DNA from: Rhodocyclaceae bacterium
GTDB lineage: Bacteria; Pseudomonadota; Gammaproteobacteria; Burkholderiales; Rhodocyclaceae
Reading direction: 5' to 3'
DNA length: 48,075 bases
Assembly: GCA_013388985.1 (NCBI GenBank)
Contig: JACAEF010000029.1
Span: 1-48,075, forward strand
In this document: one piece after another, positions 1,415 to 41,013 of the stretch
How positions within the stretch are numbered: the first letter of the stretch is position 1
Layout of the letters: each line of letters begins with the position of its first letter
Translations under genes and position numbers: made by a program
The notes under the pieces: model-generated
Seen by the model: only the letters and a program-made list of their open reading frames with translations
What the model was told of the DNA's origin: nothing
Databases searched by the model: none

Positions 1415-2383
1415 GCGCAGATCCTTCAACGCCTGCGCAAACTGATACACCGCCATCGCGTAGAAGCTCGAACGGTTGTAGCGCGTGATGACGTAGAAAT
1501 TCCGGTAGCCGAGCCAGTATTCGGTCGGCGCTTCCGGCGTGACGAGGTCGATCAGCGCGGCGGGGGCGTCGGGCGCGTCGGCCGGAATCTCGATGCCGAA
1601 TTCCTCCATCTCCTTGGGCCGCCGTTGGGGCAGGATGCCCTCTGCGATGAGCGTACCGGGTGCCGTCCCGCCAGCGCCGACTTTCACCGCGACGGCTCCG
1701 CCGGTTTCCCAGCCGTGTTGCTTGAGGAAGTTGGCGACGCTGCCGATCGCGTCCTCGGCGCTGCCGGCGAGATCGATGCGCCCATCATTGTCGAAGTCGA
1801 CCGCAAAGCTGCGGATGCTGGAGGGCAAAAACTGCGGCAGGCCGATCGCGCCGGCATAGGAGCCGCGATAGCCGTCGGGCGCGCGGCCTTCGTCGCGGGC
1901 GAGGAGCAGCAGGGCTTCGAGCTCGCGGCGGAACAGCCCGGCGCGCGGCGGGTAGTCGAAAGCGAGCGTGGCCAGGGTATTGAAGGTGTCGAAGCGGCCC
2001 ATCTGCCGGCCGTAGATCGTCTCAATGCCGAGGATGGCGACGATGATCTCCGCCGGCACGCCGGTGAGCGCCTCGGCCCTCGCCAGCGTGGCTTCGTGGC
2101 GCCGCCAGAAGGCCAGGCCGGCGGCGAGGCGCTTTGGTTCGATGAAGCGCGCGCGATAGGTCTGCCACGAGCGGATGCGCGGATCGGCCGGCGGCGCGAT
2201 GGCCTTGAGTACCGCCGGGAGGGGGCGTGCCTTGGCGAACAGCACGGCCAGCCGTGTGGCATCGAGACCATGCTTTTCCTCCATCTCGGCGATGAAGGCC
2301 TGCACGTCCTCGCGAGCGGCATAGCTGCCGGCGTGCAGCTCGAACGAGAGCAGGATGAGCAGGGCGAAGATCAGGCGTTTCAT
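1403..2383 (-). CDS. mltB: Membrane-bound lytic murein transglycosylase B family protein
   Basis: This 326-residue protein has an N-terminal signal peptide (about residues 1-18) with no lipobox cysteine, so it is probably a soluble periplasmic or SltB-like form. The catalytic glutamate is E121 in the GIETIYGR motif. The substrate-groove segment [11 protein letters not shown] follows, and then the EF-hand-like loop [10 protein letters not shown] (about 196-205), as in E. coli MltB. It cleaves the MurNAc-GlcNAc bond to give 1,6-anhydro ends. The start at 2383 was chosen because it begins the signal peptide and overlaps the upstream transglutaminase stop (ATGA). Residues 234-243 ([10 protein letters not shown]) are encoded by a copy of the dispersed 25-bp repeat. 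Confidence 0.9.
1661..1685 (+). repeat. Dispersed 25-bp repeat, copy 1 (within mltB, antisense)
   Basis: This is a full match to the repeat shared by 11 sites in this window: TGCCGT, three variable bases, GCCAGCGCCGA, one variable base, TTTC. It is read antisense by mltB, where it encodes KVGAGGTA. Confidence 0.85.
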
Positions 2384-4335
2384 GGTTTGAAATGGGCGAC
2401 GCGCCGGCGCAGCGCGGCGAGCGCATCGGGGGCAGCGTGGCCGTAGCGTAAGCTCGCATAGAGCGCGGCGATGGCGCGAATATCGTCCGCCGCGCCCGGC
2501 AATTCCTTCGCCACGCGATGGGCATAATCCTGCGGGCCTTCCCAAGGCTGGCGCGGCAGCCCGCGTTTGGCCAGCCGGCGGGTGAAGCGCCGCCATTGCC
2601 GCTCTTCCGGGTCGAGGCGCGGGCGGCGCCAGAACATCGCCGCCGAGAGGACGAGCAGCACGAGGCCGCTCAGTCCCGCAAGCCAGACGGTCATCCGGCG
2701 CCAGTCGGGTGAGTTCATGCCGAGCCGGGCGAGCAGTGCGCGCTGGCGCTCCGGATCGAAGCCGAGCACCCACTGGTTCCAGCGGTTGTTGATCGCCCAC
2801 CACTGATAGCGCAGCGCGCGCAGACAGTCGAAGCCGGGCCGCGCGAACAGCGGCAGCGGCTCGCCCTCGGGCAGCGCGGCGGCGAGATCCGCCTCGATGC
2901 GCGCGGGCGCGGCGACCGCGGTGGGATCGACGCGCAGCCAGCCGCGGCCGTCGAGCCAGACCTCGGCCCAGGCGTGCGCGTCGGACTGGCGGATCACCCA
3001 GCTGCCATCGACAGGATTCTTCTCGCCGCCCTGGTAGCCGGTGACGACGCGCGCCGGCACCCCGGCGGCCCGCATCAGCACGACGAAGGCGGCGGCGAAG
3101 TGCTCGCAGAAGCCGCGCTTCGTGTCGAAGAGGAATTCGTCGGCGACATGCTCGCCGGTGAGCGGTGGGCGCAGCGTGTAGGTGAGCCGCTGCGCCTGCA
3201 AAAAGGCGATCGCGCGCTCGACGCGCTCGGCGGGGTTGCCGAGTGCCGTCCAGCCAGCGCCGAGTTTCACCGTGCGCGGATTCATGCCGGCCGGCAGTTG
3301 CAAGGCGGCGGCGAGCACGGCCGGGGCTTCGGCGGCGAAGCCCACCTGCGGGTACGAGGTCAATGTGTAACGCCGCCGTTCGCGCACCGGTTTTCTCGCA
3401 TGGAGCTGGAAGTCGGAGGTGAAGAAAGCGTCGGGCGGCAGCGTCTCGGGCAGTTCGAGCGCGAACAGCCAGGGCTTGTTGTGCGCTTCGAGCGTGATCG
3501 TGTAAGCATAAGCCGGGCTGCCCGGCAGCGGTGCGTAGGGCGGCGCGTCGAGGCGGCGTGTATCACCGGGTCGCCAGAGGCGGCCGTCGAGCCGGGTGAG
3601 CACCGGGCCACGCCAATACATCGCGCGCTTCGGCGGCGCCTCGCCATCGAAGACGACGCGAAAGGCGATCGCGTCGGATTGCGCCAGACTCTGGATCGTG
3701 CCGGGCGCCATGCTGTCGGAGAGGCCCGTCAGCCCGGCGTAGGCGTCGCGCGGCAGGCCCCACAGCGGGCCCTGCACGCGCGGAAAGAGCAGGAAGAGGA
3801 TCAGCAGGAAGGGCGTCGCCTGCGCGAGCATTCTGCCGGTCAGCCGCAATAGCGCGGCCGGGTGGCCTTCGGCATCGGCGAGGCTCGCCAGCGCGGCGGT
3901 GGCCACCAGCACGGTCGCGATCATCGTCGCCGCGATCGGGATCGACTGGTCTTCGAAGAACTGCGCGAGCGTCAGGAAATAGGCGAGCAGCACGATCGTG
4001 AATCCATCACGCGCCGCGCGCGCCTCCAATTGCTTGAGGGCCATGAACACCACGAGCAGCGCGACGCCCGCCTGCTGGCCGAACAGCGTGCGATAGTGGA
4101 GGAACACCCCGGCGGTGGCGGCCAGCGTGACGGTGATCAGCAGCCCGCGCGGCGGCAGGGGCAGGCGCCGCCAGGCGAGCAGCGTGCGCCACAGGAACGC
4201 GCCGGCCGCGACGACCGTGAGCCAGGTCGGCACCTGGGATGCGAGCGGCGCGGTGGCCATCAGGCCGGTCGCCAGCAGCCAGACGGTCTGGGCCGGCGTC
4301 AGCGGCTGAGGCGGGGGATCAGGCTTCTTCGCCAT
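2380..4335 (-). CDS. TgpA-like membrane transglutaminase (DUF3488 - transglutaminase core - DUF4129)
   Basis: This 651-residue protein starts with five or six membrane helices (about residues 15-190). A long periplasmic segment carries a transglutaminase-like core: the cysteine C410 in KRGFCEHFA, the histidine H454 in SDAHAWAEVW and the aspartate D470 in WLRVDPT form the expected triad. One further helix (about 550-567) and a cytoplasmic DUF4129-like tail follow. Pseudomonas TgpA is the best-known relative. The substrate is unknown. It lies in a moxR-DUF58-tgpA operon, a widespread trio, and overlaps both neighbours by a few bases. Residues 357-366 are encoded by a repeat copy. The family assignment is firm; the physiological role is not. 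Confidence 0.9.
   Translation of the reverse strand: MAKKPDPPPQPLTPAQTVWLLATGLMATAPLASQVPTWLTVVAAGAFLWRTLLAWRRLPLPPRGLLITVTLAATAGVFLHYRTLFGQQAGVALLVVFMALKQLEARAARDGFTIVLLAYFLTLAQFFEDQSIPIAATMIATVLVATAALASLADAEGHPAALLRLTGRMLAQATPFLLILFLLFPRVQGPLWGLPRDAYAGLTGLSDSMAPGTIQSLAQSDAIAFRVVFDGEAPPKRAMYWRGPVLTRLDGRLWRPGDTRRLDAPPYAPLPGSPAYAYTITLEAHNKPWLFALELPETLPPDAFFTSDFQLHARKPVRERRRYTLTSYPQVGFAAEAPAVLAAALQLPAGMNPRTVKLGAGWTALGNPAERVERAIAFLQAQRLTYTLRPPLTGEHVADEFLFDTKRGFCEHFAAAFVVLMRAAGVPARVVTGYQGGEKNPVDGSWVIRQSDAHAWAEVWLDGRGWLRVDPTAVAAPARIEADLAAALPEGEPLPLFARPGFDCLRALRYQWWAINNRWNQWVLGFDPERQRALLARLGMNSPDWRRMTVWLAGLSGLVLLVLSAAMFWRRPRLDPEERQWRRFTRRLAKRGLPRQPWEGPQDYAHRVAKELPGAADDIRAIAALYASLRYGHAAPDALAALRRRVAHFKP
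3244..3268 (+). repeat. Dispersed 25-bp repeat, copy 2 (within the transglutaminase gene, antisense)
   Basis: It matches the shared repeat in all fixed positions (TGCCGT start, GCCAGCGCCGA core, TTTC end). The host gene reads it antisense as KLGAGWTA, just before the catalytic core. Confidence 0.85.
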
Positions 4336-39828: not shown

Positions 39829-41013
39829 TCAGACGTTTGCCTGCCGCTGCCGCCTGAGCATCCAGGCACTGGCAAAGAGCAGCACGCCGAGCGTCGCCGA
39901 GGTCAGCGCCAGCGGCCTGATCGTGCCGTCGTGACTGATGCCGACCCAGGTGCCGGTGACGAGCGCCGCGACCATCGTGAAGAAGCCGAGCAGGCCGGCC
40001 GCGGCGCCGGCCTCGCGCGGGAAGGGCGCTACCGCGCCCGCTTGCGCGCAGGGGAAGTTGATGCCGTGCGCGCCCATCGTCAGGAACTGGCAGAGCAGCA
40101 CCACCGACCAGTGATGCACGCCGGCCAGTACCAGCGCGGCGAACAGCAGGCCGGAAAACAGCGAGATCGAGACGCCGACCCTCATCGCCCCCGGCAGGCC
40201 CAGGCGCGCGAGCAGGCGGCGGCAGGCAATCGTGCCGATGAGATAGCCGCTGACGCCGAAGGCGAAGCAGTAGCCATACAGATGCGTGGGCACGCCGAGC
40301 ACGTCGATCAGCACGAAGGACGAGCCGGAGATGAAGGCGAAGATCGCCGCGTAGGAAAGCGCGCCGGGCAGCGCCCAGGCCCAGAAAAAGTCGGCGCTGG
40401 CGATACGGCAGTAAGTGGTGTAAAGGCGGCCGATGCGCGTCGCTTCCGGATCGGGATACGTCAGGGTCTCGCGGAACAGTCGCGCCGTGGCGGCGAGCAG
40501 GGCGATGGCGAACAAGGTGTGGAAGACGAAGGCTGCGCGCCAGCCGAACCCGACTTGCAGATAGCCGCCGAGCACCGGGCCGATCAGCGGCGCGAGCGCG
40601 AGCAGCGAGCTGGCTTTGGCGAGAACGCGCGCGCCTTCGGCAGGGGCGAAGGCATCGCGCACCAGCGCGCGGGCGACGACGACCGCGGTGCAACATCCTG
40701 CGGCTTGGACGAAGCGGGCGGCGATCAGCCAGCCGAGCGTCGGCGCAGCCGCGCAGGCGAGGCTGGCGGCGATGTAGAGGGCGAGCCCCCAAAGCAGCAC
40801 CGGGCGGCGGCCGAAGCGGTCAGAGAGTGGCCCGCTGGCAAGCTGCGCGACGCCGAAGCCGATGACGAAGAGCGAGAGCGTCTGCTGCGCCGCGGCCGGA
40901 GAGACGCCGAAGCCAGTGGCCAGATGCGGCAGCGAGGCGAGGTAGAGGTCGGTCGACAACGGCTGCAGCATCAGGCTGCCCGCGATCAGCCAGAGGAGGG
41001 TGGTCGGGCTCAT
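39829..41013 (-). CDS. Bcr/CflA family multidrug efflux MFS transporter
   Basis: This 394-residue protein has twelve membrane helices and the family motif between TM2 and TM3 ([20 protein letters not shown]), [14 protein letters not shown] residues in TM4-5 ([18 protein letters not shown]), and [17 protein letters not shown] after TM5. Such proton-driven pumps export bicyclomycin, chloramphenicol or sulfonamides; the real substrate here is unknown. Residues 202-210 (CRIASADFF) come from repeat copy 11. The start overlaps the smpB stop (ATGA), so it follows smpB in one transcript. Confidence 0.9.
40386..40410 (-). repeat. Dispersed 25-bp repeat, copy 11 (within the MFS transporter gene, sense)
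   Basis: The minus strand reads TGCCGT, the GCCAGCGCCGA core, and TTTT at the end. The gene reads it as CRIASADF, the same frame that lpxB uses for copy 9. Confidence 0.8.

Follow-up and report, generated by a model that had tools for sequence, protein, structure and literature searches.

The DNA analysed here is a 48,075-nucleotide stretch of contig JACAEF010000029.1 from a Rhodocyclaceae bacterium (the window), in which an asymmetric word of about 26 bp recurs, mostly inside genes. Scanning of the window at up to three mismatches returned 11 copies of this motif, six exact and five with one mismatch, whereas 100 dinucleotide shuffles yielded none. These are precisely the 11 positions listed in an earlier note on this DNA. 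The host genes include lpxB and genes for undecaprenyl diphosphate synthase, an M50 peptidase, two methylase families and an MFS transporter (Table 1). As the note had stated, nine of the copies lie in coding sequence, here wholly inside genes predicted by a rough custom gene finder; the copy at 16191 is intergenic and that at 19739 overlaps the stop codon of a glnD-like gene. The peptides that the note had read from the copies (KVGAGxTA, PSAPSF and CRxASAxF) were all found in translations of the window copies. An Rfam scan of the window returned no family reaching its gathering score.

The motif is not confined to the window, an outcome that the note had named as refuting its reading. Across the genome from which the window comes (2,896,965 bases in 156 contigs), 583 copies were found at up to three mismatches, about one per 5 kb, and the reversed pattern had no match. 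The copies are strand-balanced, with 274 forward and 309 reverse (p=0.16). A sample of 448,075 bases of this genome, comprising the window and 20 further stretches (the 448-kb sample), contained 26, 43, 18, 10 and 3 copies at 0, 1, 2, 3 and 4 mismatches, followed by 9 matches against 8 for the reversed control at five mismatches and 46 against 36 at six. Because the counts fall to near the reversed control from five mismatches on, real sites can be separated from chance sites.

The consensus, built from 109 matches at up to five mismatches of which about eight are expected to be chance by the reversed control, is G-TGCCGT-CYY-RCCAGCGCCGA-N-TTT-Y and carries about 36 bits over positions -1 to 26. 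The G directly 5' of the motif is present in 79% of these matches. Outside positions -1 to 24, no position between -20 and 59 exceeds 0.14 bit. The three bases described in the note as variable are correctly placed, but they are mostly C-Y-Y rather than freely variable. The motif is G+C-rich, like the genome that carries it, and lacks inverted symmetry, as the note had also reported: an ungapped fold-back pairs 10 of 26 positions at best.

Placement relative to genes and spacing were determined in the 448-kb sample, in which the gene finder predicted 448 genes covering 90% of the sequence. Among 100 copies at up to four mismatches, 64 lay wholly in genes, 10 at gene edges and 26 between genes. 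The in-gene share of 64% compares with 88% expected at random (p about 7e-10); the motif is common in genes, yet relatively enriched between them. In-gene copies on the same strand as their gene fell 13, 0 and 22 times in frames 0, 1 and 2, and those on the opposite strand 1, 5 and 23 times. The codon-preserving comparison proposed in the note gave 61 in-gene copies at up to three mismatches, against 3 to 10 in 20 synonymous shuffles. Neither of the two results that the note said would refute it was therefore obtained. Copies were also more evenly spaced than chance predicts, with five of 79 gaps shorter than 1 kb where 17.4 were expected; none of 5000 simulations gave so low a number.

Table 1. 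Copies of the motif in the window and the genes in or near which they lie.
Feature	Position	Strand	Context
Motif copy, exact	1661..1685	+	within lytic transglycosylase (SLT_2) gene on - strand
Motif copy, exact	3244..3268	+	within TgpA/transglutaminase-like gene on - strand
Motif copy, 1 mismatch	4697..4721	-	within gene 4319-5299 (-), no Pfam match at E<=1e-8
Motif copy, 1 mismatch	14251..14275	+	within tRNA (uracil-5-)-methyltransferase family gene (+)
Motif copy, exact	16191..16215	+	intergenic, close beyond 3' end of Bax1-I family gene 16220-16909 (-)
Motif copy, exact	19739..19763	+	overlaps stop codon of glnD-like gene 19762-22344 (-)
Motif copy, exact	27132..27156	+	close to 3' end of undecaprenyl diphosphate synthase gene (+)
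Motif copy, exact	29558..29582	-	within M50 peptidase gene
Motif copy, 1 mismatch	35825..35849	+	within lpxB
Motif copy, 1 mismatch	38016..38040	+	within SpoU-family methylase gene
Motif copy, 1 mismatch	40386..40410	-	within MFS transporter gene

The motif is restricted to one family. In a set of 61 genomes, 18 of the 19 from the same genus (that of the window included) carried 291 to 696 copies. A survey of 297 family genomes from 68 genera, made with a shorter pattern at up to two mismatches, found at least 100 copies in 38 genomes (226 to 796 each) belonging to seven genera: 11 of 12 genomes in g1, 11 of 12 in g2, nine of nine in g88, four of four in g70, and the one genome each of g9, g62 and g69. 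Intermediate counts were obtained for G277 (49), G064 (48), G097 (24) and G034 (19), and the remaining family genomes had 15 or fewer. None of the 386 genomes from 50 other families, among 399 genomes of the order surveyed, exceeded six copies. Neighbourhoods of named LpxB genes (the best 80 of 236 loci) suggest that this family is Rhodocyclaceae; they come mostly from metagenome-assembled genomes, many titled Rhodocyclaceae, and include Sulfuritalea, Sterolibacterium and Sulfurisoma. The strict pattern was present in 16 of these 80 loci, 13 of them within the 17 nearest (L173-L189), and was absent from the LpxB loci of Accumulibacter, Azoarcus, Aromatoleum, Thauera and Methyloversatilis. G087, with 303 copies, may correspond to Sulfurisoma sediminicola, but the strict pattern had no match in the named 21-kb locus L210.

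Some low-copy genomes carry exact or near copies clustered on single contigs (G384:C34:277116-285480; G097:C66 and C104; G214:C3 and C67), as if segments had arrived from a motif-bearing donor or through assembly contamination. A scan of 2.9 million viral contigs with the exact pattern returned 32 stretches. On one contig classed as viral (L312, 882-2239), five copies, four exact and one with one mismatch, follow one another at intervals of 316-385 bp and have similar flanks, resembling a tandem array.

The spelling of the motif differs between genera. T stands directly 5' of GCCGT in 98 of 107 G000 copies and in 17 of 20 from G017, but C predominates in G026 (27/30), G110 (14/14), G019 (16/18), G079 (15/17), G187 (10/12) and G141 (7/9). 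These counts are of matches at up to three mismatches, and the reversed control at up to four gave 0-10 matches per set (36 for G000), so a few rows may be chance. In G026, A and G are about equally frequent within CCAGC(A/G)CCGA. Judged by spelling, these differences indicate lineage dialects in G026, G110, G019, G079 and G187 relative to G000 and G017. For G028, G032 and G034 the evidence is only suggestive: the G034 spelling is mostly CCAGCGTCGACTTT, and G028 and G032 show further-altered words in the same register from few copies, with a noisy pattern search in G028 (53 matches against 29 for the reversed control). A repeated word in G024 was rejected as a dialect, being an unrelated repeat; there, copies of ACCACCAAGGACACCAAGG stand at 1962, 10409-10492 and 14756-14840 of L109, two pairs of them inverted.

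Of the 11 sites in the window, five were compared with 20 loci from the named set of 80. At 29558, 12 of the 16 relatives that could be aligned had the motif without gaps at one to four mismatches, and the other four, which are more distant, did not. At 35825, gap-free sequence with three to six mismatches, mostly near-motif, was found in 13 of 20 relatives, a likeness for which the conservation of LpxB itself may account in part. At 40386, eight of nine relatives were gap-free with two to five mismatches. Because alignment at these three sites is mostly gap-free, the word differs there by substitution in place. Only four of 15 relatives were gap-free at 27132 (one or two mismatches; 11 gapped), and all 12 aligned relatives had gaps at 38016. 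The opening bases at 29558 vary among relatives at the same site (TG, CG, CA and GG) and sometimes differ from the commonest spelling elsewhere in the relative concerned (L186).

A complete relative genome, G017 (2,737,315 bases, in a contig beginning with dnaA), was used to examine the chromosomal arrangement of the motif. Exact copies were spread over the chromosome, 120 forward and 123 reverse. No replication polarity was detected in this genome: 67 of the 120 forward copies lay in the first half (p=0.24; the places listed were those of 100 forward copies). A polar word of the type of the FtsK-orienting polar sequence (KOPS) or Chi was rejected, as there was no strand bias along the replichores of G017. 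Between 1,798.5 and 1,948.7 kb, about 150 kb contained no copy at up to four mismatches where about 30 were expected. Nine of the many proteins encoded in this island were scanned, and these matched a gpA terminase, a phage tail protein, a tape measure protein, two serine recombinases, an insertion sequence integrase core, an MmeI-like restriction enzyme, a C5 methylase and an AcrB-type pump. Since the island is motif-free and carries phage and mobile genes, absence of the motif marks foreign DNA there; the depletion was observed on this one island of one relative genome. The island (L253-L261) also shows two similar phage terminase frames alongside other phage genes, serine recombinases, and restriction-modification and resistance-nodulation-division (RND) efflux genes. 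A second dispersed element of G017 has inverted ends, ATGGACAATCTGGG, separated by about 130-195 bp, and resembles a miniature inverted-repeat transposable element (MITE) or a repetitive extragenic palindrome (REP); it was seen at L139:18424-18566 and L261:11514-11718 and several times in L263.

According to the available excerpts of PMC1939737 and PMC2346458, DNA uptake directed by a sequence word has been described for two families, Pasteurellaceae and Neisseriaceae. Like the DNA uptake sequence (DUS) of Neisseriaceae, the motif is non-palindromic, is present in very many copies, many of them in genes, and varies in spelling by lineage, as DUS does in its species dialects (PMC3630211, excerpt). 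Some copies share the letters GCCGTCT with DUS. However, the DUS core GCCGTCTGAA (PMC1939737, excerpt) occurs only twice in the 448-kb sample and the DUS 12-mer not at all; the motif spans about 26 bp, has CCAGCGCCGA and TTT as conserved blocks and, unlike DUS, shows no inverted pairs less than 495 bp from each other in that sample. It resembles the uptake signal sequence (USS) of Pasteurellaceae in being a long composite word (the H. influenzae consensus is 29 bp; PMC1939737, excerpt), in lacking orientation bias, and in its even spacing, as reported for USS. About half to two thirds of copies lie in genes in both cases; for USS, 47-70% of copies are coding against 84-89% coding DNA in the accessible text of PMC2346458. 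In contrast to USS, the cores AAGTGCGGT and ACAAGCGGT occur twice and not at all in the 448-kb sample, and the hosts of USS form a different branch of Proteobacteria. On its letters, then, the motif belongs to neither DUS nor USS. Among the listed matches from the open-access literature (titles and abstract starts, with subscription papers and preprints mostly outside), no paper on the motif or on Rhodocyclaceae uptake sequences was found.

As far as sequence can tell, the motif behaves like DUS and USS, and we consider it probable that it is a DNA uptake or self-recognition signal of type IV pilus-driven transformation in Rhodocyclaceae. On this view, the pilus or competence machinery would include a surface DNA receptor that binds the asymmetric word and favours import of DNA bearing it; recombination of imported fragments would spread and repair the word, which would build up in either orientation at any position the host can accommodate. 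Were receptor specificity to shift in a lineage, the copies would follow and a new dialect would become common. Uptake bias, a receptor, current competence and a drive acting on the word would thus all be implied. The earlier note had offered uptake sequences as an analogy, and this is partly supported: the strand balance, gene tolerance, even spacing, dialects, substitution differences at cleanly aligned sites and absence from one foreign island fit it; the failure to find canonical ComEA in 31 of 38 motif-rich genomes does not.

Of the type IV pilus and com genes for which the note had suggested looking, several are present in the window's genome. ComEC was found in an open frame of 792 amino acids, DprA matched with 262 bits, and 17 matches to the prepilin N-terminus were obtained at E<=1. 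A minor-pilin operon encodes, in a row, a pilin with a ComP_DUS domain (PF16732, 44 bits), FimT/GspH, a further prepilin, PilW, an unassigned protein and PilY1. ComEA was sought with PF12836, TIGR00426 and a profile from six relatives, a match to the last at E<1e-30 being taken as canonical. By this measure, ComEA was found in 16 of 64 genomes: seven of 38 motif-rich, eight of 20 motif-poor, and one of six with intermediate counts or variant words (G032). The seven motif-rich genomes with ComEA all belong to g88, which has nine, and a search of 13 g1 genomes found no canonical ComEA in any of them.

Several of these and other observations weigh against an uptake signal. Canonical ComEA was not found in the other 31 motif-rich genomes, G000 and G017 included. 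In the window's own genome the matches were all weaker and fell in frames of 1000 and 647 amino acids, which are probably other helix-hairpin-helix proteins. The missing ComEA is the strongest point against the standard competence pathway, or else a hint of a substitute. The ComP_DUS match is not diagnostic, because 53 of 61 genomes carry one whether or not they have the motif, and the 19 PDB matches of this pilin are general pilins. G005, a member of the same genus that is 87% complete, has no copy of the motif despite having ComEC, DprA and pilins. Spelling is not uniform within the window's genus, as G004 has C before GCCGT in five of six copies, nor within every named locus, L185 having four T, three C and one A. 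No close inverted pairs were found, the smallest of the 79 spacings in the 448-kb sample being 495 bp. The density of the motif is below that in Neisseria or Haemophilus. Nor was a bias to gene ends seen among the in-gene copies (8, 20, 17, 8 and 11 per quintile), unlike in Pasteurellaceae, where copies favour gene ends (PMC2346458, excerpt).

Candidate receptors were sought among the pilins. The minor pilins of G005 that were compared are only 28-44% identical to those of the window's genome. Prepilin presence was rejected as a means of identifying a receptor, as G000 and G017 could not be separated from G005 by it. Alignment of the ComP_DUS-domain pilins likewise did not set G000 and G017 apart from G005, and several of its rows are probably non-orthologous.

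The alternative raised in the earlier note, that the word is bound by a protein which organises or segregates the chromosome (nucleoid-associated, a condensin loader or similar) and requires roughly one site per 4-5 kb, would account for the even spacing, the spread of copies across the complete G017 genome, a long, specific and asymmetric site of about 36 bits, the absence of the motif from the acquired G017 island, and the failure to find canonical ComEA in 31 of 38 carriers. It is less favoured because no replication polarity, and thus no strand polarity towards the terminus, was seen in G017. Hundreds of sites would also have to respell together between genera, which would be hard without a copying drive, and one genus member, G005, does without the motif altogether. 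A similar proposal by Karlin for USS and DUS is reported, and argued against, in the available excerpt of PMC1939737. Overall, we regard a chromosome-organising site as unlikely. Known words dispersed over the chromosome, such as KOPS, matS, parS and Chi, are polar, confined to the terminus or origin, or much shorter; the motif is likewise dispersed but differs from them in being strand-balanced and chromosome-wide.

Another homogenising drive unrelated to uptake, such as biased gene conversion or a Chi-like motif-dependent recombination hotspot, is a still less likely source of the motif. Such a drive would be consistent with the substitution differences at cleanly aligned sites, with respelling between genera and with the sharp gap between real and chance sites, copies dwindling to three at four mismatches before control level is reached. 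Chi-type sites, however, are strand-biased relative to replication, whereas the motif is strand-balanced, and in its length and its internal variable positions it seems closer to a receptor site.

Repeated insertion of a mobile or parasitic repeat (a MITE, REP or other palindromic element) is very improbable, even though there are hundreds of dispersed copies. Gapped alignment does predominate at 27132 (11 of 15 relatives) and 38016 (12 of 12), but homologous sequence is gap-free in most relatives at 29558, 35825 and 40386. Reading frames are kept, the copies have no palindrome and no conserved flanks (nothing above 0.14 bit outside -1 to 24), and the G017 island of mobile DNA is without the motif. 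The statement in the note that the word is neither REP nor MITE is therefore borne out by the lack of symmetry and by three of the five compared sites; for 27132 and 38016 it leaves room for insertion. A palindromic repeat or RNA element was rejected, given the lack of symmetry and of any Rfam family in the window. Chance, codon usage or G+C content can be dismissed, G+C-rich though motif and genome both are, by the empty dinucleotide shuffles and reversed-pattern search, by the 3-10 against 61 copies in synonymous shuffles, and by the 259 of 297 family genomes in which the count stays below 100.

If the motif is indeed an uptake signal, it could represent a third, independently evolved family of uptake sequences, found in Betaproteobacteria of the environment (Rhodocyclaceae) and built on a composite word of about 26 bp whose spelling drifts between genera. 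Most sampled carriers have no recognisable ComEA, so that a new protein may carry out both recognition and the capture of DNA in the periplasm. We offer this larger proposal tentatively and hold it to be somewhat doubtful. An uptake signal would point to a new DNA receptor and would make the evolution of a "self" tag testable by comparison across at least seven motif-rich genera and the motif-free genus member. It would also make the motif a means of detecting foreign islands or transferred stretches in such genomes, much as an atypical DUS distribution has been used to find mobile elements in Neisseria (PMC7371117, excerpt).

One further repeat was seen during these comparisons. In the bacterial chromosome of G187, CTAAACCC units form a short, telomere-like tandem array at positions 19237-19278 of L361.

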